The notes beneath the pieces are model-generated. The model had not been told where the DNA came from and ran no database searches. It was given only the letters and a program-made list of their open reading frames with translations. From the NCBI RefSeq assembly GCF_900107015.1, contig NZ_FNOI01000002.1, positions 310,001 to 374,000 of the forward strand: a DNA stretch of 64,000 nt, in the 5' to 3' direction. The DNA comes from Litoreibacter albidus. GTDB lineage: Bacteria > Pseudomonadota > Alphaproteobacteria > Rhodobacterales > Rhodobacteraceae. The position numbers and the translations under genes are program-made. Below, piece by piece: positions 3,551 through 26,546 of this stretch (the first letter of the stretch is position 1; every line of letters begins with the position of its first letter).

Positions 3551-5074
3551 TAGAAGCCATACCACCCAAGCTGCCGCAGCAACCCCAATACCCCACATAA
3601 AACCGATCAGCCGACCATTCGGCTGGTCCTTCCGTATTGCTCTCTCACTGTCGTGAGACTGGTTCAGCGCTGTTTCCATCAATTTTGGAAGCTTCGGCCC
3701 GAAACGGCCCAAGACCTGTACGGTCGAGACCAAATCGCGCAGTAAGGCTTTCGGTCCAACATTTTCTTTGATGTAGTCTTCAACCACTGGCTGAGCAACT
3801 TGCCAGATGTTGATTTCCGGATGCATGGTCCGTGCAACCCCCTCGACAACGACCATCGTGCGTTGCAGCAGGATCAGCTCGGTTCTCGTCTCCATGCCAA
3901 AACGCTCCGTCACCTCAAAAAGGTAGGCAAGCAAATGAGCCATTGAGATTTGCGTGGCGTTCATCCCGAAAATTGGCTCACCCACCGCGCGCAGCGCCTG
4001 TGCAAAATCATCGATATCACGGTCTGCAGGCACGTATCCGGCCTCAAAGTGAACCTCGGCAACACGGCGGTAGTCCTTGCGGATAAACCCGATGAGAATT
4101 TCCGCATAAGCGCGGCGGGTGTATTCATCAATGCGCCCCATAATGCCAAAATCATAGGCGATTATGTCGCCGGAGGGGCTGACCTTTAGGTTCCCTTGAT
4201 GCATGTCGGCGTGAAAATAACCGTCGTTCAGGGCCTGCCTCAAGAACAACTGCAAGACGCGTTCGCCAAGGAGCTTCCGATCATGGCCGGCAGCGTCAAT
4301 TGCCTCCACGTCACCGAAAGCGATTCCCTCTGCCCACTCCATTGTCATGACACGCTCAGCAGAATGGAAGAAATGTGTCTTGGGTACGACGAAGCCAACA
4401 TCGCCAGCCGTCTTTGCGGCATATTCACCAGCGGCGGCAGCTTCCATCCGCAGATCAAGCTCCCCGCGCACAACGCCGTCGAAATGCTTAATCACTTCAG
4501 TCGGGTGTAAGCGACGCGATGACGGGGACAGCAACTCAATCATAGAAGCTGCGAAATAGAACGCGTCGATATCCTTTCGGAATGCCTTTTCAATGCCCGG
4601 ACGCAGGATTTTGACGGCGACCTCTTCGCCTGTCTCTTTAAGGCGCGCCTTATGCACTTGCGCAATGGATGCGGCCGCGACGGGCTCGGAAAACTCTGAA
4701 AAAATCGTCGCCAGCGACGCGCCCAGCTCCTCCTCAACTGTCGCGATCGCATAGGCTGTTGGAAACGGCGGGAGCTTATCTTGTAATACGCGCAACTGTA
4801 GCGCCAGCTCGTCACCAACCACGTCGGGGCGTGTCGATAGAACCTGTCCAAACTTGATGTACGCGGGTCCCAATGCCGACAAAGCACGCACAGCCGGCGG
4901 CATCGAAGGGTCTCCCTTGTGGCCCAACCACTTGAACGGCCAAGCCATGACGCGCGCCACCAAACGCAAAGGTGCAGGAGCGTCAAACGCATCAAGCGCC
5001 AGGTTCATCGCGCCCGTCCGCTCTAGTGTAGCGCCGGTTCGGATAAGTCGCCAAACGTTGTGCGGCCCGCGCAT
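3542..5074 (-). CDS. ubiB: UbiB family atypical kinase/ATPase, ubiquinone biosynthesis
   Basis: UbiB supports ubiquinone assembly, probably by mobilising lipid intermediates at the inner membrane. The 510-residue length matches the family. The ABC1/UbiB signature is visible as GPAYIKFGQVLSTRPDVV (KxGQ motif, about residues 70-87). AVKILRPGIEKAF carries the nucleotide-binding lysine region. HADMHQGNLKVS and IAYDFGIMGRID supply the catalytic-loop and DFG-like motifs. A C-terminal hydrophobic segment, GFMWGIGVAAAAWVVWLLLS, anchors it in the membrane. The start ATG at 5074 abuts the ubiE stop, with GGAAGA inside the ubiE end as ribosome-binding site, so the two are translationally coupled. Confidence 0.95.
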   Translation of the reverse strand: MRGPHNVWRLIRTGATLERTGAMNLALDAFDAPAPLRLVARVMAWPFKWLGHKGDPSMPPAVRALSALGPAYIKFGQVLSTRPDVVGDELALQLRVLQDKLPPFPTAYAIATVEEELGASLATIFSEFSEPVAAASIAQVHKARLKETGEEVAVKILRPGIEKAFRKDIDAFYFAASMIELLSPSSRRLHPTEVIKHFDGVVRGELDLRMEAAAAGEYAAKTAGDVGFVVPKTHFFHSAERVMTMEWAEGIAFGDVEAIDAAGHDRKLLGERVLQLFLRQALNDGYFHADMHQGNLKVSPSGDIIAYDFGIMGRIDEYTRRAYAEILIGFIRKDYRRVAEVHFEAGYVPADRDIDDFAQALRAVGEPIFGMNATQISMAHLLAYLFEVTERFGMETRTELILLQRTMVVVEGVARTMHPEINIWQVAQPVVEDYIKENVGPKALLRDLVSTVQVLGRFGPKLPKLMETALNQSHDSERAIRKDQPNGRLIGFMWGIGVAAAAWVVWLLLS

Positions 5075-5827
5075 CTAGATCTTCCAACCCGCGTGCAACG
5101 CCGCAACGCCCAACGTCATATTGCGGTAGCTCACGTTCTCGAAGCCAGCCGCGCGTATCATCCCGGCAAAGGTGTCTTGGTCAGGGAATTGTCGGATCGA
5201 TTCGACAAGGTATTGGTAGCTTTCACTGTCGCCTGCGATCACCTTCCCCATTTTGGGGATAACGTTGAAGGAATACAGATCATAAGCTTTTTGCATCATC
5301 GGATTGGGCAATTGAGAAAACTCCAGAACCATCAACCGACCACCAGGCCGCAACACACGGTAAGCTTCGCTTAGGGCATCTGCGATACGAGTGACGTTCC
5401 GTATACCAAAGCTGATTGTATACACGTCGAAACTGTTATCCTCGAACGGCAATGCCATTGCATCGCCGACGACCCAATCAAGGCGGTCCGCTAGGGACGA
5501 TGCTTCCGCGCGCTTGCGCCCTTCGACCAGCATCGATTCCGTCATATCCAGAACGACTGCATCCGCGTCACCGGCCCGCGCCAAGAACCGGAAAGACACG
5601 TCGCCCGTGCCGCCGGCCACGTCCAGCAGCCGCTGTCCCGCTCGCGGGGCCAGCCAGTCCATCATCGCATCTTTCCAAATGCGGTGAATGCCCACCGACA
5701 TCACGTCATTCATGATGTCATACTTCGAGGCCACGTTCGTGAACACGCCATGTACCATCCCAGCCTTCTGGTTTTCTGGGACGTCCGTGAACCCGAAGTG
5801 GGTGGTTTTTTGCGAATCTTCAGCCAT
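5075..5827 (-). CDS. ubiE: Bifunctional demethylmenaquinone / 2-methoxy-6-polyprenylbenzoquinol methyltransferase UbiE
   Basis: UbiE is the SAM-dependent C-methyltransferase of ubiquinone biosynthesis. The 250-residue protein has the family signature [22 protein letters not shown] near residues 30-50, followed by the SAM-binding motif [15 protein letters not shown] and the downstream block [13 protein letters not shown] and [14 protein letters not shown]. It is the first gene of a two-gene unit with ubiB and diverges from mutM across a 90-base gap. ubiE-ubiB divergent from mutM, upstream of dnaA, is an arrangement I associate with many Rhodobacterales. Confidence 0.97.
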
Positions 5828-5917
5828 CTGTTCTTGCGGTCCTTACAATCTCACCCTTTCTTATAGGTCTAGCTTGGCGGGTTACAATGCGACCCAAAGG
5901 ACGAATGAGGGTGCGCG

Positions 5918-6766
5918 ATGCCAGAACTACCAGAAGTCGAAACTGTCAGGCGCGGCCTGCAACCCCATATGGAGGGGCGTGTCATGGCACGGGTGGAGGT
6001 CAACCGGCCCGACCTGCGCTGGCCATTCCCCCCGAATATGACGGGCCGGCTTCAAGGAAAGACAGTCACCGCACTGCGTCGACGTTCCAAATACATCTTA
6101 GTTGATCTGGATAGCGCGGAGACTTTGATCATCCACTTGGGAATGTCGGGCCGAATGCAAATTGACGAAGCACCGACGGCGCAGTTCCATCATGAGCCAC
6201 CTGTGGCCCAAAAGCACGACCATGTTGTATTTCACTTACAGGACGGCACGAGAATTGCGTTCAATGATGCTCGCAGGTTCGGCGCCATGGATTTAACACC
6301 GACGGCTGAGGTCGAGAATCACTGGCTCCTTAACAAATTGGGTCCGGAGCCCTTGGGGAATTCGTTCAACGCACCGTATTTGGTCGAAGCCCTGAAAAAG
6401 AAGTCATCCCCGATCAAAACCGCGCTGCTGGATCAACGAGTCGTCTCCGGCTTAGGCAACATTTACGTCTGCGAGGTTCTGTTTCGCACTGGCATCTCAC
6501 CGAAGCGCAAAGCCTCAAACTTGAGCGCCGCACGCGTTGCAAGCCTCGTCCCCGCCATTCGGGATGTCTTGGAGGAAGCCATAGAATCGGGAGGTTCCTC
6601 CCTGCGCGACCATCGGCAAACCAACGGTGAGCTGGGTTATTTTCAGCATAATTTTGCTGTGTACGACCGCGAAGGAGCGCCGTGTCGGAATGAGTGCGGC
6701 ACCAACATTTTCCGTGTTGTTCAGTCGGGGCGTTCCAGTTTTTACTGCCCCAAATGTCAAAGATGA
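5918..6766 (+). CDS. mutM: Formamidopyrimidine-DNA glycosylase MutM (Fpg)
   Basis: MutM removes 8-oxoguanine and formamidopyrimidines from DNA and cleaves the abasic site. The 282-residue protein starts [14 protein letters not shown], giving the catalytic N-terminal proline after Met removal and the adjacent glutamate. [12 protein letters not shown] and [11 protein letters not shown] are conserved structural motifs. [19 protein letters not shown] is the helix-two-turn-helix. The C-terminal zinc finger is C-x3-C...C-x2-C (PCRNECG, then YCPKCQR) with the final SGRSSFYC arginine loop. The first cysteine pair is spaced by three residues rather than the more common two. Confidence 0.97.
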
Positions 6767-6823
6767 ATTGAACCTCGGCGTGAACATGCTACGTCTCATG
6801 ACCTGCTAGCAATGAGGTACATC

Positions 6824-7600
6824 ATGGCATTCAAGACAATTATTGTTGAAATTGAAGAGCATATCGCGCTGATCAAACTGAATCGCCCTGACGCATTGAA
6901 CGCGCTCAATGCGACGTTGCTATCTGAACTCTCGCAAGCACTGACGGACGCGGGCACCAACAAGAAGGTGCGCTGCATCGTCATTACCGGCTCTGAAAAG
7001 GCATTCGCAGCTGGCGCAGATATAACTGAGATGGCCGAAAAGTCCTTCGTCGACGTGTTCGGCGGCGACCTCTTCTCGGAATTTCCGAACACTTTCATGC
7101 GGGTACGCAAACCCATTATCGCCGCGGTCTCAGGCTATGCCTTGGGCGGTGGGTGCGAGTTGGCGATGATGTGCGACTTCATTATCGCATCAGACACCGC
7201 AAAGTTTGGGCAGCCGGAAATCAACCTTGGCGTCATGGCAGGTTTGGGCGGCTCGCAACGCCTGACACGCTTTGTTGGCAAGTCGAAAGCCATGGATATG
7301 AACCTGACCGGACGTTTCATGGACGCCGAAGAAGCTGAGCGCTCTGGACTGGTAAGCCGTGTCGTACCGGCGAAAAAACTGATCAACGAGGCCATGGCCG
7401 CAGCCGGAAAGATTGCTGAAAAATCTGCGCTCGCCACCGTTGCCATCAAAGAATCGGTGAACCGCAGCTACGAGACAACACTCAACGAAGGATTGCTGTT
7501 CGAGCGTCGGGTTTTCCACTCCCTTTTTGCGACAGAAGACCAAGCAGAGGGTATGGCAGCCTTTATAGAAAAGCGCGAACCGCAGTTCCGCGACAAGTAA
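6824..7600 (+). CDS. Enoyl-CoA hydratase (crotonase family)
   Basis: This enzyme adds water to trans-2-enoyl-CoA in fatty-acid or amino-acid degradation. The ATG at 6824 is preferred over the in-frame ATG at 6812 because GAGGT lies five bases before it; this gives 258 residues, the usual length. Oxyanion-hole segments [11 protein letters not shown] and [16 protein letters not shown] are present. The two catalytic glutamates appear in GGGCELAM and [15 protein letters not shown]. It follows mutM in the same direction and precedes rpsT, a common Rhodobacterales arrangement with no obvious functional link. Substrate chain length cannot be read from sequence. Confidence 0.92.
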
Positions 7601-7686
7601 TGCCAATTAGAGCGTTGACTTGAAGGCGAGTCGGTCCTAGAAGCGCATTCTCAGATTTTCACACCGAACCATCGGGGTCCTTACGT

Positions 7687-7950
7687 ATGGCAAATTCGCC
7701 TCAAGCTAAAAAGCGCGCGCGCCAAACAGAGCGCCGCACCGAAGTAAACAAAGCACGTCGCTCGCGCATCCGCACGTTCCTGCGCACAGTTGAAGAAGCA
7801 ATCACTGGTGGTGATTCTTCCGTCGCTAAAGACGCGCTCAAAGCTGCTCAGTCTGAACTGATGCGCGGCGTCTCCAAAGGCGTGATGCACAAGAACACAG
7901 CGGCACGCAAAATGTCGCGCCTGTCATCGCGGGTCAAAGCCATCGGCTGA
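7687..7950 (+). CDS. rpsT: 30S ribosomal protein S20
   Basis: S20 is a primary 16S rRNA-binding protein of the small subunit. The 87-residue product is basic and helical, starting [17 protein letters not shown], with the conserved later segment [20 protein letters not shown]. The upstream gap contains TTGACT at 7616-7621 as a possible -35, with TAGAAG 17 bases further as a weak -10. A strong intrinsic terminator follows at 7986-8012. It is therefore likely a monocistronic, highly expressed gene. Confidence 0.97.
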
Positions 7951-7985
7951 TCCGGTTACAACTGATTACAGTTAAGATTTTCTAG

Positions 7986-8012
7986 AACGCGCCCTTATCG
8001 GCGCGTTTTTTT
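7986..8012 (+). terminator. Rho-independent terminator of rpsT
   Basis: A perfect 8-bp stem (AACGCGCC at 7986-7993 with GGCGCGTT at 8000-8007) encloses a six-base loop and runs straight into a run of T residues to 8012. It lies 36 bases after the rpsT stop, in the right orientation. Confidence 0.9.
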
Positions 8013-8159
8013 GTGCCCGATCCTTGGGGCGCGGCTTTTGCGCCACGGTTAGATTCGAGATCGTACTAAGTATGAGTCAAGCGCGAAGATAAGTTGCGAC
8101 ATGCCCTATCCAGTCGCTATCCATATTGAGCGATTCACTTCGTCTCGGGGGGACATGGA

Positions 8160-8609
8160 ATGAGCACGAACACCAGTTCGGCTGTGCAAGACTTGCGGCC
8201 GGTACAGGCTTGGGACCTTTTAGAAAAGAACCCTACAGCAGTGCTCATCGACGTCAGGACAAAAGCCGAATGGTCTTTTGTGGGGAAACCTGACCTGTCG
8301 ATCCTAAATCGTTCGGTTTTAACAATCGAGTGGTGTAGGTATCCGGATATGTCCGTAAATCCGCGGTTCGTTGAAGAAATGAATGAGGCACTGGGCAACG
8401 TTCTGCCGTCCCAGCTCTTGTTTATTTGCAGGTCCGGTGCGCGTTCTATGAACGCAGCGCTTGCGGTTCACGCTTCCCTTGCCGAGGGAGCGCACCACGT
8501 GGATCTGTTCAATGTAGCCGAGGGCTTCGAAGGCGACTTGGATCAGGAAAAACATCGGGGGGGGCTTAATGGCTGGAAGTCCCACGGGTTGCCATGGGGG
8601 CAATCCTGA
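8160..8609 (+). CDS. Rhodanese-like domain protein
   Basis: This 149-residue single-domain rhodanese carries VLIDVRTKAEWSFVG near residues 34-48 (the conserved DVR entry motif) and the active-site loop LLFICRSGARSMNAA, where the cysteine of CRSGARS is the persulfide-forming residue. Rhodaneses shuttle sulfane sulfur; the physiological acceptor is unknown. It lies 19 bases upstream of dnaA in the same direction and may share a transcript with it. The C-terminus ends in a Gly/Trp-rich tail (NGWKSHGLPWG) seen in related alphaproteobacterial proteins. Confidence 0.88.
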   Translation: MSTNTSSAVQDLRPVQAWDLLEKNPTAVLIDVRTKAEWSFVGKPDLSILNRSVLTIEWCRYPDMSVNPRFVEEMNEALGNVLPSQLLFICRSGARSMNAALAVHASLAEGAHHVDLFNVAEGFEGDLDQEKHRGGLNGWKSHGLPWGQS

Positions 8610-8628
8610 TCTGCGGAACGGGTAAAAG

Positions 8629-10014
8629 ATGACGAACGACACTTGGGGGCAAGCGCGTGAAACGCTGCAAACTACTATTGGTAAGAACAACTACCAAACT
8701 TGGATTGAACCACTAACTTTCATTTCTTGCGACGGTGGCGTCGCTGAATTTGGTGTGCAAACCAGCTTTCAGGGGGACTGGGTCTCTCGCAACTTCGGCG
8801 ACGAAATTCTTCGCCAGTTTGACAAGCTTGGTGAATCCGTTGACCGCCTGAAGTTCTCGGTTCAGAGCAATCGCCCGGTGAAAACTGCAGCACCTGCCAC
8901 GACCACCATCTCGAAGTCCGGACAAACCGCTGCGCCAAAACCTGTTCAGGCCGCAACGCCGTCCGACGATCCCGTGATTGGCGCCCCTCTCGACAAGCGC
9001 TTTACGTTTGACCGTTTCGTTGTCGGGAAACCCAACGAACTGGCGCATGCCGCCTCACGCCGCGTCGCCGAAGGTGGTCCGGTCAGCTTCAACCCTCTGT
9101 TCCTCTACGGCGGTGTTGGCCTTGGTAAAACCCACCTGATGCACGCTATCGCTTGGGAGCTACAGACCCGCTCTCCCGAACTCAAAGTTGTCTACTTGTC
9201 CGCAGAACAGTTCATGTACCGCTTCATCCAAGCGCTGCGCGACCGTCAAATGATGGACTTCAAAAGCCTGTTTCGCTCGGTCGACGTGCTCATGGTGGAT
9301 GACGTCCAGTTCATCGCTGGCAAAGACAGCACGCAAGATGAATTCTTCCACACGTTTAACGCGCTGATTGATCAGCAAAAGCAGATCATCATCTCCGCAG
9401 ATCGCGCACCTGGCGAGATCGACGGCTTGGAAGAACGCATTCGGTCGCGGCTGCAGTGGGGGCTGGTCGTGGATTTGCACCCAACCGACTACGAACTGCG
9501 CCTTGGCATCTTACAGCAAAAGGTCGAGCAGTACCGCGCGCAGTATCAGGAGCTGAAAATCACTGATGGCGTGCTGGAATTCTTGGCGCACCGCATTTCC
9601 AACAACGTGCGTGTCCTAGAGGGTGCGTTGACACGACTGTTCGCGCTGGCCTCACTGGTTGGCCGCGAGATCACGCTGGAGATGGCCCAAGAAAGCCTCG
9701 CCGACATTCTGCGCCAGTCCGACCGCAAGGTGACGATGGACGAAATCATGCGCAAAACCTGCGACTACTACAACGTGCGCATGTCCGACCTGCTGTCGCC
9801 AAAACGGTCACGGAACATTGCGCGCCCCCGTCAGATGGCCATGTGGTTGGCAAAATTGCTGACCCAACGCTCCTACCCTGAAATCGGGAAGCGTTTCGGC
9901 AACCGCGATCACACCACGGTCATCCACGCGGTTCGCAAAATTGACGAGCTAAAAGCGCAAGACAGTCAGGTTGCCGAGGATGCGGAGCTACTTCGTCGCA
10001 TGCTCGAAGCCTAA
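8629..10014 (+). CDS. dnaA: Chromosomal replication initiator DnaA
   Basis: DnaA binds DnaA boxes at oriC and opens the duplex. The 461-residue protein shows domain I (WGQARETLQTTIGKNNYQTW), a Pro/Ala/Thr linker at about 85-115, and the AAA+ domain with Walker A GGVGLGKTHL at 161-170 and Walker B VLMVDDVQFI. The C-terminal DNA-binding domain carries the signature FGNRDHTTVIHAVRKI. dnaN and recF follow in order. The gap before the rhodanese gene and the gap before dnaN do not show an obvious DnaA-box cluster, so the origin need not be here. Confidence 0.99.
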   Translation: MTNDTWGQARETLQTTIGKNNYQTWIEPLTFISCDGGVAEFGVQTSFQGDWVSRNFGDEILRQFDKLGESVDRLKFSVQSNRPVKTAAPATTTISKSGQTAAPKPVQAATPSDDPVIGAPLDKRFTFDRFVVGKPNELAHAASRRVAEGGPVSFNPLFLYGGVGLGKTHLMHAIAWELQTRSPELKVVYLSAEQFMYRFIQALRDRQMMDFKSLFRSVDVLMVDDVQFIAGKDSTQDEFFHTFNALIDQQKQIIISADRAPGEIDGLEERIRSRLQWGLVVDLHPTDYELRLGILQQKVEQYRAQYQELKITDGVLEFLAHRISNNVRVLEGALTRLFALASLVGREITLEMAQESLADILRQSDRKVTMDEIMRKTCDYYNVRMSDLLSPKRSRNIARPRQMAMWLAKLLTQRSYPEIGKRFGNRDHTTVIHAVRKIDELKAQDSQVAEDAELLRRMLEA

Positions 10015-10122
10015 TTGCCTTGACGATCCCGCGATAAAAGCGGACTTTTCAACAAAATGTTTGCATAAGCGGGCGGAGAGGATACCTTCTCCGCCCCAGC
10101 TATCTTCCAAAGAGGGACGGAT

Positions 10123-11241
10123 ATGAAAATCAGTGTCGAGCGCAGCGCCCTGCTCAAGGCTGTGAGCCAAGCTCAATCAGTTGTCGAGCGCCGTAACACC
10201 ATCCCTATTCTGGCCAACGTCCTGATCGAAGCCGAAGGTAACGATGTGACGTTCCGCGCGACCGACCTTGATATCGAAGTTGTCGACAAAGCCCCCGCGC
10301 AAGTTGAACGCGCCGGTGCAACCACGGTATCCGCGACCACCTTGCATGAAATTGTGCGCAAGCTGCCTGATGGCGCGCTCGTTTCTCTTACGGACGACGG
10401 GGCGACAGGGCGGTTGACCGTAGAAGCCGGCCGCTCGAACTTCTCCTTGGCGACACTGCCAAAAGAAGACTTCCCCGTTATGGCGACGTCCGAATACCAG
10501 TCGAACTTCTCCGCACCAGCCCCGATGTTGCGCCGCTTGTTCGACAAGTCCAAATTCGCGATCTCGACCGAAGAAACACGGTATTATCTGAACGGCGTCT
10601 ACATGCACATCTCTGACGCTGACGGCGGCAAGGTGTTGCGCTGCGTCGCGACCGACGGGCACCGTTTGGCCCGCATTGACGCCGACTTGCCGGACGGCGC
10701 CTCAGATATGCCCGGCGTCATTGTGCCACGCAAAACAGTGGCAGAGCTTCGCAAACTGCTTGAAGACGACGACATGCAAATCGCGGTGTCCGTTTCCGAG
10801 ACCAAAATTCGCTTTGCGACCCCCGCTATCACGCTGACATCCAAGGTCATTGACGGCACATTCCCAGATTACACGCGCGTTATCCCGCAGGGAAACACGC
10901 GCAAGTTGGAGGTGGACGCCACAGAGTTTGCAAAAGCCGTGGACCGTGTGGCGACCGTTTCGTCCGAAAGGTCGCGCGCCGTTAAGCTGTCGCTAAGCGA
11001 GGATCGTTTGGTCCTGTCCGTCAATGCCCCCGACAGCGGTGCTGCGGAGGAAGAGCTCGCCGTTGCCTATAGCGACGAGGCGCTGGAGATCGGCTTCAAC
11101 GCCAAGTACTTGTTAGAGATCGCAGGCCAAGTCGACCGTGAGAACGCTGTTTTCATGTTTAACTCAGCGGGCGACCCAACCTTGATGCGTGAAGGCAATG
11201 ACCAATCTGCGGTCTACGTCGTGATGCCGATGCGCGTTTAA
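10123..11241 (+). CDS. dnaN: DNA polymerase III subunit beta (sliding clamp)
   Basis: The beta clamp encircles DNA and tethers polymerase III and repair proteins. The 372-residue length is standard. It begins MKISVERSALLKAVSQAQSVVERRNTIPIL, the conserved first-domain start, includes CVATDGHRLA in the second domain, and ends VMPMRV, matching the usual C-terminal protein-binding cleft residues (MPMR). It is separated from dnaA by 108 bases and from recF by 9 bases, suggesting that dnaN-recF are co-transcribed. Confidence 0.99.
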   Translation: MKISVERSALLKAVSQAQSVVERRNTIPILANVLIEAEGNDVTFRATDLDIEVVDKAPAQVERAGATTVSATTLHEIVRKLPDGALVSLTDDGATGRLTVEAGRSNFSLATLPKEDFPVMATSEYQSNFSAPAPMLRRLFDKSKFAISTEETRYYLNGVYMHISDADGGKVLRCVATDGHRLARIDADLPDGASDMPGVIVPRKTVAELRKLLEDDDMQIAVSVSETKIRFATPAITLTSKVIDGTFPDYTRVIPQGNTRKLEVDATEFAKAVDRVATVSSERSRAVKLSLSEDRLVLSVNAPDSGAAEEELAVAYSDEALEIGFNAKYLLEIAGQVDRENAVFMFNSAGDPTLMREGNDQSAVYVVMPMRV

Positions 11242-11250
11242 CCCGCGCTC

Positions 11251-12357
11251 ATGGCGGGACTGTACCTTTCCGCGCTAGCTTTATCCCATTTCAGGTCCCA
11301 CCGCAGGGTGGAGCTGCAGCTTGACGATCGACCAGTAGCGATTTTCGGCTCCAATGGCGCTGGAAAAACCAACATCCTAGAGGCGATTTCGATGCTCTCT
11401 CCAGGCCGTGGCTTACGCCGCGCCAAGGCCGATGAAATCGCCCGCGCACCAGAAGCCGTGGGCTGGAAGGTATCAGCGCTTCTGCACAGCCTTGGCCAAA
11501 CCCACGAGTTGGAAACCCGCGCGGAGGCTGGTGGGAACCGGACAGTCAGCATTGATGAGAAAACCGCGCCCCAAGTTGCTTTGGGACGCATCGCACGTGT
11601 CGTGTGGCTGATCCCGGCGATGGATCGTTTGTGGCTTGAGGGTGCGGAAGGGCGTCGCCGCTTTCTGGACCGCATCACCCTAAGCTTTGAGCCTAAACAT
11701 GCCGAAGCATCCGTTACCTATGAAAAGGCGATGCGAGAGCGTAACCGCTTGCTCAAGGACATGGTCCGCGACCCAATGTGGTACGGGGCTCTAGAAACCC
11801 AAATGGCCGATGCAGGCGCACAGATCATCGCCAACAGGGCGAACGCATTGGCTCGGTTGCAATCCGCCATGCAAAACGCCCAGACGTCGTTCCCCACCGC
11901 CGACCTATCCATTGAGGCCCCAGATGACGGCGATTTTCTTGACAGCGCCGAGGCGTTGCTCGCCGCCTTCCAAGCCTCCAGATCGACAGACCTACGCGCG
12001 GGCAGAACGCTTGTCGGCCCTCACCGTGTCGATCTGAAAGCCATTTACACAGCGAAGAACATCGAAGCAAAGCAGTGCTCTACGGGGGAACAGAAAGCGT
12101 TACTGCTCTCCCTCATCTTGGCAAATGCGCGGGCGCTATCCGAAGACTTTGGTGCCGCTCCAATCATACTCTTGGACGAGGTTGCGGCCCACCTGGACGC
12201 CGATCGTCGCGCGGCGCTTTATGATGAGATCTGTGCGCTCAAGGCACAGGCGTGGATGACCGGAACCGGCGCGGAGTTGTTCGCTGAGCTTGCCGACCGT
12301 GCGCAGCACCTTGAAGTATCGGACGATAACGGCGCCTCCAAAGTAACCTTTCAGTAA
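11251..12357 (+). CDS. recF: DNA replication and repair protein RecF
   Basis: RecF is an SMC-like ATPase that loads RecA at gaps with RecOR. The 368-residue protein has the N-terminal LSHFRSHRRVELQ motif, Walker A IFGSNGAGKTNILEAIS, the ABC-type signature region STGEQKALLLSLILANA, and Walker B PIILLDEVAAHLD. It starts nine bases after dnaN. The end lies 24 bases before an unrelated LysE-family exporter gene that is inserted between recF and gyrB. Confidence 0.97.
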   Translation: MAGLYLSALALSHFRSHRRVELQLDDRPVAIFGSNGAGKTNILEAISMLSPGRGLRRAKADEIARAPEAVGWKVSALLHSLGQTHELETRAEAGGNRTVSIDEKTAPQVALGRIARVVWLIPAMDRLWLEGAEGRRRFLDRITLSFEPKHAEASVTYEKAMRERNRLLKDMVRDPMWYGALETQMADAGAQIIANRANALARLQSAMQNAQTSFPTADLSIEAPDDGDFLDSAEALLAAFQASRSTDLRAGRTLVGPHRVDLKAIYTAKNIEAKQCSTGEQKALLLSLILANARALSEDFGAAPIILLDEVAAHLDADRRAALYDEICALKAQAWMTGTGAELFAELADRAQHLEVSDDNGASKVTFQ

Positions 12358-15594: not shown

Positions 15595-15623
15595 CGTTAG
15601 GGTTGCTCTAGGCTGCCCTAACG
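15595..15623. terminator. Inverted repeat between convergent gyrB and App1-type gene
   Basis: CGTTAGGG (15595-15602) and CCCTAACG (15616-15623) form a perfect 8-bp stem with a 13-base loop in the convergent gap. The right arm overlaps the stop codon of the leftward gene. There is no T run, so a role as bidirectional terminator is only a possibility. Confidence 0.4.
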
Positions 15624-16649
15624 GACTGTCGCAGTGCTATCGGGCGTCGCGAACAGGTCGGGCCGCGCCTTAATCAGTCGCTCCTGAAAACCGTCAAAAG
15701 ATGGCGCAGCGAAAGCGAGCCTTTTAGTGGCAAGCAACTGATCTAAATCAGTTAAATCAACCGCATCCATCCCTGGCCCCGGCGCGCGCAAACCTACTGC
15801 TGCGATACGGTCACCGTGACGTTCGATTGCGGCATGGTAGATTTTCGCGTCATGCTGGCCGGTGTCTCCCAACAAGATCGCAGGCAAATCAGGATAGGCG
15901 TTCAAGATGTGGTCGATGCTCGCGCCTTTGTGGTCTCCATGCCCCTCAGTGATGAATTGGGTGTCGCTTAGACCGAGATCGCGAAGGAACATCGGCCCCG
16001 CGATCAGACCAGTATTCGCGAATACCCGTTGCAAGAAGCCATGCATGTTCCAAGGTGAGGAGCTAACATAGAACACCGGATTGCGACCGCCCGCGGACAA
16101 CCACGTCGTCAGCGAAATCGCGTCTGTGTAGGCATGTCGCGTCTTGGTGTTTCCGGTGAATGTAGTGAATAGATTGCGAAGCAGAGAATAGGCACCGGTC
16201 TCTATCATCGTGTCATCAATATCTGAAATGACGATGAACCTTGCATCTGCGCGCGGCGCAAACACGGGGCACGGGACCGCTTCAGCCCGCCCCTCGACGT
16301 GCACATATTCGGTACTCCACCCCTCGCGCTCATCAGCAGGTAGCACCAATGTGAAGTAGCCCTCCTCATCGGTTTGCGCCTTCGTGGCGTCAGAGCACAC
16401 CGTCACATCCGCAACTTCATTGGTAAAAAACAGGTCAAGCATCCGGCGAAAGTTGCCCCATCTGGATTGACCATCCGCCACGTCGTAACTGCGCAAACTG
16501 CCAAGGACTCGCCCCCGCACAATGACATGCTGCTGGGTTGCATAGCCTATGTAGGGGTCGATTTCTCGTCCGCTGGTCGGCCTGTGAAACACACGGTCAA
16601 AACCGCGTTCGGCGATAAGGGCAATCTTGTGCAATACACGTTTAATCAA
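15618..16649 (-). CDS. App1-type phosphatase domain protein (DUF2183)
   Basis: This 343-residue protein contains the DUF2183/App1 phosphatidate-phosphatase-like domain of the HAD superfamily. The catalytic DxDxT motif is in ARFIVISDIDDTMIETGAYS near the middle. VFYVSSSPWNMHGFLQRVF and LPAILLGDTGQHDAKIYHA correspond to the later HAD motifs, the latter with the paired acidic residues. The N-terminal ~130 residues resemble a beta-rich accessory region. Yeast App1 dephosphorylates phosphatidic acid; the bacterial substrate is not known. It is convergent with gyrB and appears to be a single-gene unit. Confidence 0.85.
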   Translation of the reverse strand: MIKRVLHKIALIAERGFDRVFHRPTSGREIDPYIGYATQQHVIVRGRVLGSLRSYDVADGQSRWGNFRRMLDLFFTNEVADVTVCSDATKAQTDEEGYFTLVLPADEREGWSTEYVHVEGRAEAVPCPVFAPRADARFIVISDIDDTMIETGAYSLLRNLFTTFTGNTKTRHAYTDAISLTTWLSAGGRNPVFYVSSSPWNMHGFLQRVFANTGLIAGPMFLRDLGLSDTQFITEGHGDHKGASIDHILNAYPDLPAILLGDTGQHDAKIYHAAIERHGDRIAAVGLRAPGPGMDAVDLTDLDQLLATKRLAFAAPSFDGFQERLIKARPDLFATPDSTATVR

Positions 16650-16727: not shown

Positions 16728-18152
16728 TTACTCCGCAACCAAAGCCTTTGCCTCTGCCAAATCGCGCATCAGAACGTCACGGGCCGTTGACTGTGCAGCA
16801 GTGTCAGGCAGGCGCAAAATATACGCCGGATGATACGTGATCAAAACTGGCACCCCGTCGCGCCCTGCTTCGACCTTGCCGCGACGCCCGCTTATCGGAC
16901 CCTTCCGCCCCGTCAGCGCCATCGCAGCCGTGGCACCGAGCGCGACTACGAGCTTCGGTTGAACGCGCAAAAGCTCCGTATCAAGCCAGAGGCGGCAATG
17001 CTCGACCTCATCGCTGGCAGGCGTCTGGTGAATACGCCTTTTGCCGCGCACGACGTGTTTGAAATGCTTCACCGCGTTGGTCAGGTATACGCGGTCCCGT
17101 TCCAATCCCACATGCTGCATAGCCTGCCCCAGCACCTGACCGGCAGGCCCTATGAACGGCCTGCCGTGCAGGTCTTCAATGTCCCCCGGCTGCTCCCCAA
17201 CGATCATCAACGCGGCCTTGTCCGGCCCACATCCCGCAACAACCTGCGTCGCCTGTGCGTGCAGCGGACAGCGCTGGCACGACGCCAGTGCAGCGGCAAA
17301 ACCGCTCTGCGGCCCATCCCAATGCGCCCCACGTGTGGCTGCACTCTGCACCTTGGCTGCGCGTACTGGCGGCAAGGTTGGTGCGGCTTCCGCCATAGCG
17401 CGTGCCCGTGCGGGGGCCTCGGCGATCAGCCTTGGGATCGCGGCCGCCTCTGGAAGATTTTTCCAGTACTTCTTCGGCATCTCGGACGTCATCGCGTTTA
17501 CCTTCAACCGAGCTGGATTGAAGATGTTGCAGAAATACGTGGTCCAAAGGTCTTCGTGAGCATCTTCGCGCAAATCCGGCTTCGGCAAGTCCACTGCGAA
17601 CCGCAACACGCCGCCCTCAAAAATCGCCGTGACGTCTGGCGTCACAATTCGCCAATCCATATCCGCAAAGCGCTTGACGAAGAACGTTGCTGTTGGCTCC
17701 ATGGTGTGATGCGTCGGCTCGAACCACGCGGCAAAACTGCGGCGCTCCGCTTCAGGATCTCCAATCTCGCGAAACCGAACAAACGCCTTCATTTTATGCT
17801 GACATCGGTAGACCGCCTTCTCCATAGCACGCAGCGATTGCACCAATGGGTCCGCGCGATCCTGCATCAACCCGCGTTCGCGTTGCAGCCGGTACAGGCA
17901 GCTATAAAGCCGATCAAACCGGTCCGCATCAGTATGCCACACGACAGCCCGCGCCAAAGACACAAATGATTTGGGCACGCTCAGGCGGCTGTCGTCCACA
18001 ACGGGTGGCGCAGAAACCTCATCAAATAAACCGCCTGCCGCGCCTTGGCCGAACGTCACATCACGCGGCGACATTCCCGCCGCGAGACAAGCGCGCGCCG
18101 CATCGCGCCAAGCGGTGTCCACTCCCAGCCGAGGCAGTACAATCCGCTTCAT
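16728..18152 (-). CDS. UdgX uracil-DNA cross-linking protein fused to an N-terminal DUF4130 domain
   Basis: This 474-residue fusion joins two families. Residues about 1-240 match the DUF4130 / 'putative DNA metabolism protein' family. Residues about 285-474 form a UdgX-type uracil-DNA glycosylase: GEQPGDIEDLHGRPFIGPAG at about 319-338, the UdgX-specific loop KRRIHQ at 371-376, and ITYHPAYILRLPD near 438. In characterised UdgX the histidine of KRRIHQ (here His375) covalently traps the abasic sugar after uracil removal. Cysteines C292, C295, C308 and C386 are candidates for the family's 4Fe-4S cluster. The start overlaps the stop of the upstream radical-SAM gene by one base (TAATG), indicating coupled translation. 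Confidence 0.9.
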   Translation of the reverse strand: MKRIVLPRLGVDTAWRDAARACLAAGMSPRDVTFGQGAAGGLFDEVSAPPVVDDSRLSVPKSFVSLARAVVWHTDADRFDRLYSCLYRLQRERGLMQDRADPLVQSLRAMEKAVYRCQHKMKAFVRFREIGDPEAERRSFAAWFEPTHHTMEPTATFFVKRFADMDWRIVTPDVTAIFEGGVLRFAVDLPKPDLREDAHEDLWTTYFCNIFNPARLKVNAMTSEMPKKYWKNLPEAAAIPRLIAEAPARARAMAEAAPTLPPVRAAKVQSAATRGAHWDGPQSGFAAALASCQRCPLHAQATQVVAGCGPDKAALMIVGEQPGDIEDLHGRPFIGPAGQVLGQAMQHVGLERDRVYLTNAVKHFKHVVRGKRRIHQTPASDEVEHCRLWLDTELLRVQPKLVVALGATAAMALTGRKGPISGRRGKVEAGRDGVPVLITYHPAYILRLPDTAAQSTARDVLMRDLAEAKALVAE

Positions 18153-19387
18153 TAGAATAGACTAAGCTGCTCTGGTGGGGGCGCGAACAACCCGCGCAAG
18201 TCGGCGCTGTCCGTCAGCCCCCCCGGTGTCCAACCTTTGGCCGTAATAAACACACGCGCCTTCTTCAAGGACGCCCCAAGTCGCGCAATATCCTCGTAGC
18301 GCAAGGTGCGGTGACGGCGCGTCGCGATGATGCGGTTGACCGTTTTCACCCCAAAACCAGGAACTCGCAGCAGCATCTCGCGGGAGGCAGAGTTTACGTC
18401 GACCGGAAACCCTTCTCGGTGCGCCAAAGCCCATGCGAGCTTTGGGTCGATGTCCAGATCAAGGTTGCCGCCCAGCGCTGTGTCCGTAATCTCGTGCAGC
18501 TGAAAGTCGTAGAACCGCAGCAACCAGTCCGCTTGGTACAAACGATGCTCACGCTGCAACGGCGGGCTAACCAGCGGGAGGCGCGACGATGCGTCCGGGA
18601 TCGGACTAAACGCCGAGTAATATACTCGCTTCAAGCCGTAGGAACCATATAGCCGCGTTGACTGGCCCAGAATGGTCGCATCGTTTGCGCCATCGGCCCC
18701 GATGATCACTTGGGTCGACTGGCCCGCAGGCGCAAACTTTGGCGGGCGTTTGCCCGTGTGAGATCGGTCTTTACTCGCGATCTGGCGCAGCTTGACGTCA
18801 GCCATTGCTTTCCGGATTTGATCCGGACTTTTCTCGGGCGCGTATTCCTTCACGGCTTGGTCCGTCGGCAATTCGACGTTTATCGATAGACGGTCCGCCA
18901 ACCGACCTGCCTCCGCTATCAGTTCGGGCGCAGCGTCGGGGATCGTCTTCAGGTGGATATAACCGCGAAAATTTTCCTCTTCCCGCAGCTTCCTTGCAAT
19001 ACGGACCATGTCCTCCATCGTCTTGTCAGGCGACCGGATAATGCCGGACGATAAAAACAGCCCTTCGATGTAATTGCGTCGGTAGAAGTCGATTGTCAGC
19101 TTCACAACTTCATCGACGGAAAACCGCGCGCGCTCCACATTCGACGACACGCGATTAACGCAATACACACAATCGTAGATGCAGAAGTTCGTCATCAGGA
19201 TTTTTAGTAAACTGATGCATCGCCCGTCCGGGGCGTAAGAGTGACATATGCCCGAGCCGGTGTTCGATCCGAGTCCTCTGCCATCGCTGGAGTCCCGCTT
19301 TGTGGAACCCGACGACGCGCATGACGCATCGTATTTTGCGGCGTCGCTTAGAATCGCCAGCTTTTCGTTGATTGATTTTTGAGCCAT
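18152..19387 (-). CDS. Putative DNA modification/repair radical SAM protein (UdgX partner)
   Basis: This is a radical SAM enzyme of the family that typically sits beside UdgX/DUF4130 genes. The cluster-binding motif is NFCIYDCVYCVNR (CxxxCxxC, about residues 75-90). The C-terminal part carries a helix-hairpin-helix DNA-binding-like segment, VNSASREMLLRVPGFGVKTVNRII, where GFGVKT is the hairpin. I chose the ATG at 19387 (411 residues, starting MAQKSINEKLAILSDAAKYD), since the longer frame lacks family-like sequence; no strong ribosome-binding site is visible. The chemistry is unknown. Coupling to UdgX and the HhH segment suggest action on DNA. Confidence 0.88.
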   Translation of the reverse strand: MAQKSINEKLAILSDAAKYDASCASSGSTKRDSSDGRGLGSNTGSGICHSYAPDGRCISLLKILMTNFCIYDCVYCVNRVSSNVERARFSVDEVVKLTIDFYRRNYIEGLFLSSGIIRSPDKTMEDMVRIARKLREEENFRGYIHLKTIPDAAPELIAEAGRLADRLSINVELPTDQAVKEYAPEKSPDQIRKAMADVKLRQIASKDRSHTGKRPPKFAPAGQSTQVIIGADGANDATILGQSTRLYGSYGLKRVYYSAFSPIPDASSRLPLVSPPLQREHRLYQADWLLRFYDFQLHEITDTALGGNLDLDIDPKLAWALAHREGFPVDVNSASREMLLRVPGFGVKTVNRIIATRRHRTLRYEDIARLGASLKKARVFITAKGWTPGGLTDSADLRGLFAPPPEQLSLF

Positions 19388-19552
19388 GTGTTCATGGTAT
19401 GTTCTTATCGTGTTTATTTCAACCTGCCTGTGCGGCATTCCCCCGCGTCACGTGGCCTTCGGGTCGCTTCCTCCCTTTGCGGAACCTTCGAGACGTTAAG
19501 CACGTTTGTACATATCGGTCTCCGCGCGATCGAACCTCAAAAGGAGTTGGAT

Positions 19553-19768
19553 ATGAGCAACATCAGCGAAGGCGACACCGTGAAATGGGACTGGGGAAAC
19601 GGGAGCGCATCAGGCACCGTTCAGTCTGTGTTCTCGGAGAAGACAACTCGCACGATCAAAGGTTCTGAGGTTACGCGCAACGGCACCAAAGACGATCCAG
19701 CTCTCTACATAAAGCAAGACGACGGCGACGCGGTTCTCAAACTCGCATCGGAAGTAAAGACGACATGA
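19553..19768 (+). CDS. HVA1 (DUF2945, TUDOR-like) small protein
   Basis: This 71-residue protein matches the hypervirulence-associated TUDOR-domain (HVA1, DUF2945) family: ISEGDTVKWDWGNGSASGTV at the N-terminus, then GSEVTRNGTKDDPALYI and DAVLKLASEV. The start ATG at 19553 follows AAGGAG by seven bases; a longer in-frame ORF upstream has no support. It overlaps the topoisomerase IB start by four bases (ATGA), so the two are coupled, and it diverges from the radical-SAM gene. The family's biochemical role is not established. Confidence 0.87.
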   Translation: MSNISEGDTVKWDWGNGSASGTVQSVFSEKTTRTIKGSEVTRNGTKDDPALYIKQDDGDAVLKLASEVKTT

Positions 19769-20727
19769 CAGCGGGCTTGGTCTACGTATCGGATGCTGAT
19801 CCCGGCATCTCGCGGCGCCGCTGCGGACGCGGGTTCACCTACACCGCGCCCGACGGGACCACCATCGCGCGCGGAGAAGAGCGTCAACGGATTGAAGCTC
19901 TCGCCGTCCCGCCAGCGTACGAAGACGTCTGGATTTGCGCGCTTGAACTCGGTCACATTCAAGCCACAGGCCGCGACGCGCGAAAGCGCAAACAGTACAG
20001 ATACCACCCCGACTGGTCTGCCGCTCAGGCGGAAACCAAATTTGAACAGCTTCCGGCCTTCGGGGCCGCGCTCCCATCAATTCGCCGACGTGCGGATAGG
20101 GATATCGCCTTGTCCCCAGGAGACGAAGAGTTCGCTCTGGCCGCTGCCGTCATGTTGATCGACCGCACGTCGTTGCGTGTCGGAAATCCTTCCTACGCGC
20201 GTGAGAACGGTAGTTACGGCGCGTTAACGCTAAAACGCCGCCACCTAAGGATGTCGGACGATAGCATCCGGCTGAGCTTCACCGCGAAAGGCGGCAAAAA
20301 AGTTCGGCAGACAATCACCGACCGCAAGCTTCAGAGGCTGCTACACAAAGTGAGTGACCTTTCCGGTGCGACACTACTGTCGTGGTCGGACGATGACGGC
20401 GCGGATCACACAATCTCTTCGCAAAAACTGAATGAATACTTATCCGACGCGGCCGGACAGGCGGGCATCACAGCCAAAGCATTCCGAACATGGGCAGGTA
20501 CACTGGCCGCATTCGAATGTGCAGAAAAAGGCAGCCCGAGCATTAAAGACATGGCGGATGCAGCAGCTAAGCGATTGCACAACACGCCGACAGTGGCGAG
20601 AAACAGCTACATTCACCCAGCTGTAATCGACTTGGCGAGCCGCGCCCAAATCGACCTGAAGCCCACCCAGATGAGAGGGCTATTCGCGGCGGAACAACGT
20701 CTGATGACGTTCTTGGAAACGCACTGA
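19765..20727 (+). CDS. DNA topoisomerase IB
   Basis: A poxvirus/bacterial-type topoisomerase IB relaxes supercoils through a 3'-phosphotyrosine intermediate. The 320-residue protein shows the expected catalytic set: Arg in TSLRVGNPSYA, Lys in GALTLKRRHL, Arg in AFRTWAGTLAAF, and the nucleophilic Tyr in VARNSYIHP near residue 290. The N-terminal part (VPPAYEDVWICALELGHIQATGRDARKRKQYRYH) is also typical, split here as a VPPA motif followed by the QATG and RKQYRYH blocks. It is translationally coupled to the HVA1 gene. Such enzymes are scattered among proteobacteria and are not essential, consistent with an accessory role. Confidence 0.93.
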   Translation: MTAGLVYVSDADPGISRRRCGRGFTYTAPDGTTIARGEERQRIEALAVPPAYEDVWICALELGHIQATGRDARKRKQYRYHPDWSAAQAETKFEQLPAFGAALPSIRRRADRDIALSPGDEEFALAAAVMLIDRTSLRVGNPSYARENGSYGALTLKRRHLRMSDDSIRLSFTAKGGKKVRQTITDRKLQRLLHKVSDLSGATLLSWSDDDGADHTISSQKLNEYLSDAAGQAGITAKAFRTWAGTLAAFECAEKGSPSIKDMADAAAKRLHNTPTVARNSYIHPAVIDLASRAQIDLKPTQMRGLFAAEQRLMTFLETH

Positions 20728-25097: not shown

Positions 25098-26546
25098 TTA
25101 TATCCTCAGCAGCGATTGGAGCATTTCGTCGACGGCTTGAATGACCTTTGCGTTTGCCGCGTAACTTCGCTCAATCAATAGTAGCTTTTGCATTTCATGG
25201 TCCGTATCGACGCCACCCGCCTGCTCTGCGTCGCGGAAGGCTTGAACACGTGCCGCTTCAAACCCTTGCCTTTCAACCGATGCCTGTCGGTCTAACCCAA
25301 CCTGCGACAAGAACTGCCCTGCCAATGCGGAGCTGGAACCAGCGTCGAAGCCCACACCACTGGAGGGCAGACGCGCGCCGGATATCGACGTTCTGTATGC
25401 GTTCAAAATGTCATTGGCCGAAGCGGGGCCAGCGGTTGCCGCATTCAAGCCATCGCGTAATCTCCAGACTGCGCCGCCCTGCTCGATCAAAACAGCCGAA
25501 TTAACCGAAAGTCGTGACGCAAGCCCCGCCTCCAACAACGGGTCTAGGGCGCCGCCCGCATCCGTGAATAGCCCAGCCTCTCCCGCTAATAGTGTGGGGT
25601 CAGCAGCATTCGCCCGCTCGATGAGGTCTCTCGACAAGGCGTCCAAGTTAGATTGAATCCTAGGTAGATCATCGTCTCTCAGGGCAAAGGCCGCCGCCAG
25701 AGAACCACCGGAAATTGCTTCAAGCGGGCTACCATTTACGCTTGAGGCGCCAATAATTTGCAAGTCAGACACTGCGCCGCTGGCAAGTGTCATATCCGGC
25801 GTGATCAGGTTGGTCGCCGTGAAGGTAAACGTCGCCGCTTGGTAATCTACGAGGGTTGTGCCATTTGGCGTCAGCAAAGCAATTTGACCGTGTTCGCGCG
25901 GTACGGCCTGTACTCGGATGAACGTCCCGATCTCGTCGACAGCCCGTTGGCGCTGATCCATAAGGCCCGATGGGTCACCGCCGGAGTTGACCTGCTTTCG
26001 GATTTCCCTGTTCAACCGATCAACATCCAAAAGCGCAGTATTCAGCTGCTCCACTTGTGTCGAAATTGATCCGTCAGCGACTTGGCGTTCTTGTTGAATC
26101 CGTCCAGATATCTCGTTGATTTTTCGTGCCAAGCCAACCGCACTATCCACGACGCGGCTTAGCATCGTGCTACTAGATGGGTTTGCCGCCGCGGTGATGA
26201 GGCTTTGCTCAAACCTGTCAACAAAAGCCGACAGCGACGCGTCAGAGTTGGGGGCTCCTATGACCTGCTCCACGCGCGTCAGCACTTGCGCACGCGCATC
26301 ATGGTACCCCAACTCCGCTTCCGCTAATCGCCTGTCAGCGACCGCAGCTTCGTTCACGATCCGCTCAACCCCGTTGACGCGCACGCCCGCGCCGCGACCG
26401 CCGACTGTTTCCGCACTCAGGGATAGCTCCCGCCGACCGTAGCCCTCGGTCATCGAATTCGCCACGTTGGCCGACACAAGTTCAGCCGCGCGCGACACCG
26501 CGTTCAGGCCAGACAGCGCGTTGGAGAGGGATGCGGATATGCTCAT
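25098..26546 (-). CDS. flgK: Hook-filament junction protein FlgK (HAP1)
   Basis: FlgK is the first junction protein on the hook. The 482-residue product begins MSISASLSNALSGLNAVSRAAELVSANVAN, matching the rod/hook N-terminal motif, and ends with the matching C-terminal helix DHEMQKLLLIERSYAANAKVIQAVDEMLQSLLRI. The central region is Ala/Ser-rich. AAGGACC precedes the ATG at 26546. It follows flgE by 24 bases and precedes flgL directly, as in the classical flagellar order. Confidence 0.96.
   Translation of the reverse strand: MSISASLSNALSGLNAVSRAAELVSANVANSMTEGYGRRELSLSAETVGGRGAGVRVNGVERIVNEAAVADRRLAEAELGYHDARAQVLTRVEQVIGAPNSDASLSAFVDRFEQSLITAAANPSSSTMLSRVVDSAVGLARKINEISGRIQQERQVADGSISTQVEQLNTALLDVDRLNREIRKQVNSGGDPSGLMDQRQRAVDEIGTFIRVQAVPREHGQIALLTPNGTTLVDYQAATFTFTATNLITPDMTLASGAVSDLQIIGASSVNGSPLEAISGGSLAAAFALRDDDLPRIQSNLDALSRDLIERANAADPTLLAGEAGLFTDAGGALDPLLEAGLASRLSVNSAVLIEQGGAVWRLRDGLNAATAGPASANDILNAYRTSISGARLPSSGVGFDAGSSSALAGQFLSQVGLDRQASVERQGFEAARVQAFRDAEQAGGVDTDHEMQKLLLIERSYAANAKVIQAVDEMLQSLLRI

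Follow-up and report, generated by a model that had tools for sequence, protein, structure and literature searches.

A radical-SAM/DUF4130 operon with a fused UdgX domain and a LexA-type box in Litoreibacter albidus, and its relation to topoisomerase IB

A locus of Litoreibacter albidus raises the question of what a radical S-adenosylmethionine (radical-SAM) gene, hereafter rSAM, does in one operon with a gene for a DUF4130 domain fused to UdgX, and whether the divergent HVA1 and topoisomerase IB (TopIB) genes beside them belong to the same system. The locus covers positions 16,728 to 20,727 of the window, that is, the whole stretch of 64,000 nucleotides analysed (contig NZ_FNOI01000002.1, positions 310,001 to 374,000), and all coordinates below are those of the window. 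The answer to which we give somewhat better than even chances is an SOS-induced, clamp-tethered rSAM/DUF4130 complex that would process DNA lesions and in which UdgX would be an optional trap for uracil. The operon has the following features:

16728..18152, minus strand: coding sequence of the DUF4130-UdgX fusion, 474 amino acids (TIGR03915 and TIGR03914 over cut-off; PF13566 and PF03167)
17445..18152, minus strand: DUF4130 (TIGR03915) part of the fusion, residues 1-236, from profile matches
16755..17438, minus strand: UdgX part of the fusion, residues 239-466, with GEQPG, the R-loop KRRIHQ and HPAYILR, from profile and motifs
17028..17030, minus strand: codon of His375, by motif reading the counterpart of His109 of M. 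smegmatis UdgX (MsmUdgX)
18152..19387, minus strand: rSAM coding sequence (TIGR03916), 411 amino acids, likely true start ATG 19387 as judged from relatives
19160..19183, minus strand: CxxxCxxC of rSAM (C69, C73, C76), invariant in alignments A1 and A2
19217..19321, minus strand: stretch holding the additional invariant residues C23, C48, H49 and C57 (alignments), a possible auxiliary Fe-S or Zn site
18155..18169, minus strand: C-terminal QLSLF of rSAM, residues 407-411, matching the sliding-clamp-binding consensus QL[S/D]LF
19390..19404, no strand assigned: LexA-type SOS box GTTCATGGTATGTTC, reading GAACN7GAAC on the minus strand, just upstream of the rSAM ATG and also present in 80/80 relatives

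The initial annotation, made from the sequence alone, had described a UdgX-DUF4130 fusion with KRRIHQ (His375) and an overlapping rSAM gene with CxxxCxxC and GFGVKT, and both descriptions hold. TIGR03915 matches fusion residues 13-236 with 187 bits (cut-off 112.25) and TIGR03914 residues 239-466 with 300.5 bits (cut-off 189.95), while KRRIHQ begins at residue 371, so the histidine is residue 375. rSAM scores 584 bits against TIGR03916 (cut-off 343.5), also matches PF04055 and contains CIYDCVYC and GFGVKT, its helix-hairpin-helix lying slightly below the Pfam gathering score; its stop TAA has one base in common with the start ATG of the fusion (TTCTAATGAAG). The mechanical open reading frame of rSAM begins at 19438. 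We moved the start to the likelier ATG at 19387 (MAQKSINEKL), because the stretch before it consists of the LexA-type box; 18 of 80 close relatives also have a stop codon there, ahead of the conserved KLxIL. YHEHM, considered as conserved protein sequence, was rejected: it is the LexA-type box in translation.

Whether the three domains form one unit was judged from two samples. The close relatives are 80 rSAM loci, the best 80 of 412 from a contig search, which come mostly from one family and are not independent; 63 of them hold at least 16 kb, and in 77 the fusion or DUF4130 was read as protein. The phylum sample consists of 150 Pseudomonadota genomes, searched with profiles at curated cut-offs. 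rSAM exceeds its cut-off in 22 of these genomes, and DUF4130 is found in all 22 as well as in a remnant (G071), the rSAM and DUF4130 domain matches lying 243-844 bp apart in the 22. DUF4130 likewise follows rSAM in 80/80 close-relative loci, one of them cut by its contig end. UdgX is over its cut-off in 21 of the 150 genomes, 17 of which also have rSAM, and is present in 15/16 alphaproteobacterial rSAM genomes. Five of the 22 (G023, G046, G074, G082 and G099) carry rSAM and DUF4130 with no UdgX over cut-off anywhere, and four of the 21 UdgX genomes are without rSAM. Among the 77 loci, 68 have UdgX and nine stop after DUF4130. Furthermore, the pair (TIGR03916/03915) occurs in Pseudomonadota, Bacillota, Bacteroidota and Fusobacteriota, and in Clostridia, Bacteroidota and Fusobacterium, where only the loci were covered, it has no fused UdgX. 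Since the pair persists without UdgX in these five genomes and nine loci, and without a fused UdgX in loci of other phyla, we conclude that rSAM and DUF4130 are the unit and UdgX an addition.

Some loci at the edges of these samples deserve mention. The remnant in G071 (L151) has UdgX behind the conserved C-terminal end of DUF4130 and no rSAM, and is likely what is left of a fusion. A scan of viral contigs with the single rSAM protein found no relative; with an alignment it returned two contigs, one (L296) without DUF4130 in the remaining 0.8 kb downstream and one (L297) cut by its end. L137, filed as Acinetobacter phage MD-2021a, looks bacterial, as glyS, glyQ and other cellular genes flank its rSAM pair, and L023, titled Nocardioides marinus, holds a Roseobacter-like rSAM locus and is probably contamination.

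By its score, GEQPG, KRRIH R-loop and HPxxxLR, the UdgX part is a regular family member; it shares these three motifs with M. smegmatis UdgX (6ajp, 6ail) and matches 6ajp at E 1.1e-19, a target TM-score (TMt) of 0.85 and 43% identity. The AlphaFold model of the fusion has a mean predicted local distance difference test score (pLDDT) of 86.7. Unlike the MsmUdgX chains, of about 210 residues and without DUF4130, the window UdgX is fused to DUF4130 and stands in an operon with rSAM. In the DUF4130 part, R126, F127, P146, F158, R161, I169, R215 and P226 are kept in 27/27 aligned rows, the window's own sequence counting for two of them. SRAP/HMCES proteins, which are unrelated to UdgX, crosslink to abasic sites. 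The comparison with this abasic-site shield (YedK), whose genes have SOS-linked contexts (PMC3765255, partial text), is one of working only; unlike it, UdgX generates its own abasic site from uracil, and a role of His109 is described for MsmUdgX (PMC10359453, partial text). Covalent bonding of the window UdgX to abasic DNA is a prediction by analogy with other UdgX proteins.

The initial annotation went further and proposed that the adduct between UdgX and DNA may be resolved, modified or reversed by the rSAM/DUF4130 pair. The crosslinking-type histidine is kept in 68/68 UdgX-bearing relatives (GEQPG in 67/68, L032 having AEQPG), so pairs with a UdgX have preserved its suicide chemistry, which suggests selection in vivo for a suicide crosslinker; moreover, 17 of the 22 rSAM genomes have UdgX over cut-off. 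Against it stand the five of 22 genomes and nine of 77 loci in which the pair does without UdgX, the four of 21 UdgX genomes without rSAM, and the pairs of Fusobacterium, Clostridia and Bacteroidota with no fused UdgX. As a general role for the pair, adduct processing is not supported by these counts, and we consider the proposal quite unlikely.

The second line of evidence for an SOS-induced complex is the box over the rSAM start. On the minus strand it reads GAACATACCATGAAC and lies two bases before ATG 19387. Within a search range reaching 150 bp upstream of the matched start and 90 bp into it, all 80 close-relative loci have GAACN7GAAC or GTTCN7GTTC, 79 of them the exact GAACN7GAAC and the sole exception (L078) only GTTCN7GTTC at -29. 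The chance expectation is 0.35 boxes at rSAM starts, from 23 boxes outside those stretches (1.27 Mb in total). One of the six search peptides overlaps the box; this peptide occurs in 0/80 loci, so sampling did not create the signal. In the phylum sample, where the search reached 400 bp upstream and 60 bp inside, the alpha-type box is present in 16/16 rSAM genomes of the window's class and CTGTN8ACAG in four of the six rSAM genomes outside Alphaproteobacteria. A further set of 13 loci includes a Methylobacterium locus (L304) with the alpha-type box, and two of its 12 non-alpha loci, one of Clostridia (L299) and a faecal contig (L298), have a tandem GAACN4GTTC upstream of rSAM. Judged by motif, the box type at rSAM follows the lineage's own operator. 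An SOS-regulated UDG-COG4277 operon in other lineages (PMC8565304), a clostridial rSAM operon under predicted LexA control (PMC3828012) and an Acinetobacter rSAM of the same name that goes up on drying (PMC13130816) have been reported (all partial text). We infer from the conserved box that the rSAM operon belongs to the SOS (LexA) regulon, with LexA binding and induction by damage as the expected behaviour. The window also has another GTTCN7GTTC box, at 25390-25404.

The third line is the C-terminus of rSAM, where the window's QLSLF, in a tail of low AlphaFold confidence, matches the sliding-clamp-binding consensus QL(S/D)LF (PMC9690074, PMC3716654; partial text). A loose form of the pattern is found in 67/68 family proteins, 21/21 of the phylum and 12/13 other rSAM proteins (100/102), whereas shuffled tails meet it in 2.1, 1.0 and 0.5 cases, and two chance matches occur elsewhere per set. 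Of the two misses, one has QLELFG in full, cut by the reference used, and the other QLSIF. UmuC, the Pol V protein, is under SOS control. It carries a clamp motif of the same QLxLF type, QLNLF (PMC3716654, partial text); unlike UmuC, rSAM is a radical-SAM enzyme and not a polymerase, and has its motif at the extreme C-terminus. These tails suggest that rSAM is a sliding-clamp client, which could be tethered by DnaN. HHH_3 is matched in 16 of 20 rSAM members at E 0.01.

At the N-terminal end, CxxxCxxC is invariant in alignments A1 (20 rows) and A2 (68 rows), and so are C23, C48, H49 and C57, which are also kept in 15/15 canonical proteins (five of the 15 being in A1 or A2 as well). These four residues may form a second metal site, Fe-S or Zn. 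All four are changed together in a paralog on a Gemmatirosa plasmid (L138, 3977-5257), which scores 303 bits against the TIGR03916 cut-off of 343.5 and has no DUF4130 in its 9 kb locus. L138 carries QLSLW close to its end and may represent a second subfamily.

What reaction such an enzyme would carry out is the point on which two further explanations differ. Sequence profiles gave rSAM no good match among solved structures (best E 0.005), and the profile matches extend to ThiH, HydE and LipS1. A fold search with the poor rSAM model gave TM_1862 (2qgq), which we take to be a RimO, first at E 8.3e-4, then human LIAS at E 1.5e-3, followed by viperin and HydE. These two best matches would fit a sulfur-inserting enzyme, like a methylthiotransferase or lipoyl synthase, that acts on DNA with an auxiliary cluster at C23/C48/C57; indeed the extra cysteines stand shortly before CxxxCxxC, the last of them 12 residues upstream of it, and LipA has a similar order of extra cysteines before its CxxxCxxC. 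However, the matches are weak (query TM-score, TMq, 0.31-0.35), the model is unreliable in the relevant region and the C/C/H/C set fits a zinc site equally, which makes this explanation very unlikely. An rSAM that reverses a pyrimidine lesion in the manner of spore photoproduct lyase, or a pair that modifies thymine with UdgX removing products, has been brought close by PMC3765255, which in the part available terms the associated proteins SplB-like and proposes thymine modification. Yet the best 50 of the 987 PDB structures that match the poor model by fold include no spore photoproduct lyase, and the profile matches go to ThiH, HydE and LipS1 instead. We know of no spore photoproduct lyase with the extra Cys/His set, and hold this explanation unlikely too.

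The SOS-induced, clamp-tethered complex could work as follows. On DNA damage, LexA would leave its box at the start of rSAM, and the two-gene operon would be switched on. rSAM would bind DNA through its C-terminal helix-hairpin-helix, as the domain suggests, and its clamp-type motif would hold it at replication forks or repair gaps, where rSAM and DUF4130 would act on a damaged or unusual nucleotide by radical chemistry, possibly with the putative metal site at C23/C48/H49/C57. Where fused, UdgX would excise uracil and cap the abasic site covalently through the R-loop histidine, as other UdgX proteins do. At stalled forks, UdgX would most likely bring the complex to abasic sites of single-stranded DNA or shield these sites, and is most likely not the substrate that rSAM evolved to process.

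Several observations weigh against this scheme. The loose clamp pattern was defined after the tails had been inspected; the strict QL[SDA]LF, searched in the last 60 residues, is found in only 30/68, 7/21 and 4/16 proteins, though nowhere else in them, and the exact QL[SD]LF stands at the extreme C-terminus in 28/68. The extra Cys/His residues are lost as a set in one paralog only, L138, and the AlphaFold model of rSAM is poor at the cysteines (residues 19-82 below 50). A DUF4130 fold was not found, as the strong matches among those listed (50 per library) are UDG-type proteins or DNA polymerases with a UDG domain. Finally, two phylum genomes (G074 and G094) have no LexA-type box at rSAM, nor do ten of the 12 non-alpha loci, some with short upstream stretches or approximate starts; L140 and L300 of these ten have only a degenerate, weak GGAN5TCC match and the other eight nothing. 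SOS control is therefore not shown for every lineage.

The remaining part of the question concerns the two divergent neighbours:

19553..19768, plus strand: HVA1 (Hva1_TUDOR) gene, a neighbour outside the operon (PF11160)
19765..20727, plus strand: bacterial TopIB gene, a neighbour and phyletic partner (PF01028 and PF21338; co-occurrence)

Their divergent arrangement and four-base overlap, described earlier, are confirmed (ATGA, 19765-19768), and TopIB has both the Topoisom_I core and Top1B_N_bact domains. The initial annotation had treated all four genes as a compact DNA-repair group. Of this, the repair-type rSAM/fusion pair stands; the grouping with TopIB and HVA1 does not, since these lie near rSAM in one of 80 relative loci (L002), and the 15 genomes of the family that carry rSAM as well as TopIB have the genes close together in a single case, the window's own. 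The Phaeobacter inhibens plasmid has a different TopIB (52% identical) one gene from rSAM, with a ligase/exonuclease pair near, and in four further Phaeobacter records rSAM and TopIB are about 1.6 kb apart. On an Azospirillum plasmid no TopIB is annotated within 8 kb of rSAM, and on a Paracoccus albus plasmid the two are 100 kb apart.

Co-occurrence of the genes fared better, at least for TopIB. In a family sample of 120 genomes, one per genus, TopIB is present in 15/21 genomes with rSAM vs 7/99 without (p 1.3e-9), HVA1 in 13/21 vs 16/99 and Ku in 9/21 vs 4/99. A quick GyrB tree, built for 117 of these genomes, gives at least 16 changes of rSAM, and over nine supported independent pairs TopIB agreed with rSAM 5.8 times and opposed it 0.2 times (median p 0.031, range 0.016-0.69), against 4.5/0.3 for HVA1 and 3.5/0.1 for Ku (median p 0.125 each). 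An explanation through Ku alone is not supported, as the association persists in Ku-negative genomes (7/12 vs 7/95, p 7.6e-5), nor is one through genome size within 3.5-5.0 Mb (14/19 vs 5/63, p 4e-8); in TopIB-negative genomes Ku shows no clear association (1/6 vs 4/92, p 0.28), these three tests being without tree correction. A regularised logistic fit, for which no errors were computed, weights TopIB 2.9, Ku 2.1, size 0.18 and HVA1 0.14. Ku co-occurs and keeps weight beside TopIB; therefore part of the signal is the general repair complement. HVA1, with almost no weight beside TopIB, seems to follow it: in the window, as in nine of 23 relatives, it lies at most 0.6 kb upstream of TopIB. The suggestion that TopIB may act in the same response finds no backing in regulation: upstream of TopIB/HVA1, 22 of 23 loci lack a LexA-type box, and the box in the 23rd (L002) is rSAM's own. 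A GTTCN7GTTC at 19619-19633, within the HVA1 gene, is probably chance, because L002 has no box at the corresponding place.

That the four genes are one functional unit, with TopIB and HVA1 serving the same reaction, would account for the co-occurrence, seen also across tree pairs and in Ku-negative genomes, and for rSAM and TopIB adjoining in the window, L002 and the Phaeobacter plasmids. The neighbourhood in a single locus of 80, the 23 loci without an own box, the weight of Ku and the near absence of weight for HVA1 make this improbable. TopIB is a phyletic partner of rSAM, outside its operon and box, and would be an accessory gene in its own right, often found in the same genomes. As side observations, an alphaproteobacterial locus (L141 of G043, 4268-11406) has TopIB beside a gene that by eye resembles the LigD polymerase, with a stand-alone UdgX about 3 kb off, which is another grouping of TopIB with repair genes, and an APP1-like phosphatase gene lies downstream of UdgX in the window (15618-16649), in the same order in L002 and L054.

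How much of this is new? We take COG4277 to be the same family as TIGR03916. The NCBIfam set TIGR03916-TIGR03915(-TIGR03914) and the COG1573-COG4277 operon comprise the same families, in a two-gene operon with SOS regulation as here (PMC8565304, partial text). That operon is described as a putative 'UDG base excision repair' operon, and the available part of its description does not include the clamp motif, the extra cysteines or the dispensability of UdgX. To call the locus an undescribed system, as had been done, was thus too strong: NCBIfam has names for the members of the pair, and PMC3765255 and PMC8565304, as far as their accessible text goes, discuss it. Among the papers listed, our literature search found no measured chemistry or substrate for rSAM or DUF4130 in the text accessible, and no paper treating UdgX together with radical SAM. 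The rSAM-DUF4130 pair and its SOS regulation in other lineages are already known; this analysis adds the clamp-type motif, the extra ligand set, LexA-type boxes that match the lineage, and the co-occurrence with TopIB.

A bolder version, unlikely in our estimate, is that a clamp-tethered SOS rSAM, equipped with a second metal site, joins DUF4130 in repairing or rewriting a DNA lesion, that UdgX is the covalent uracil/abasic anchor handing the lesion over, and that TopIB helps at the same forks. If true, this would be a route of DNA repair distinct from base excision, nucleotide excision and reversal of the photolyase type. For the family as a whole, the motif, the ligand set and the lineage-matched boxes turn 'putative DNA modification/repair' into tests of residues, of a partner and of the timing of expression.

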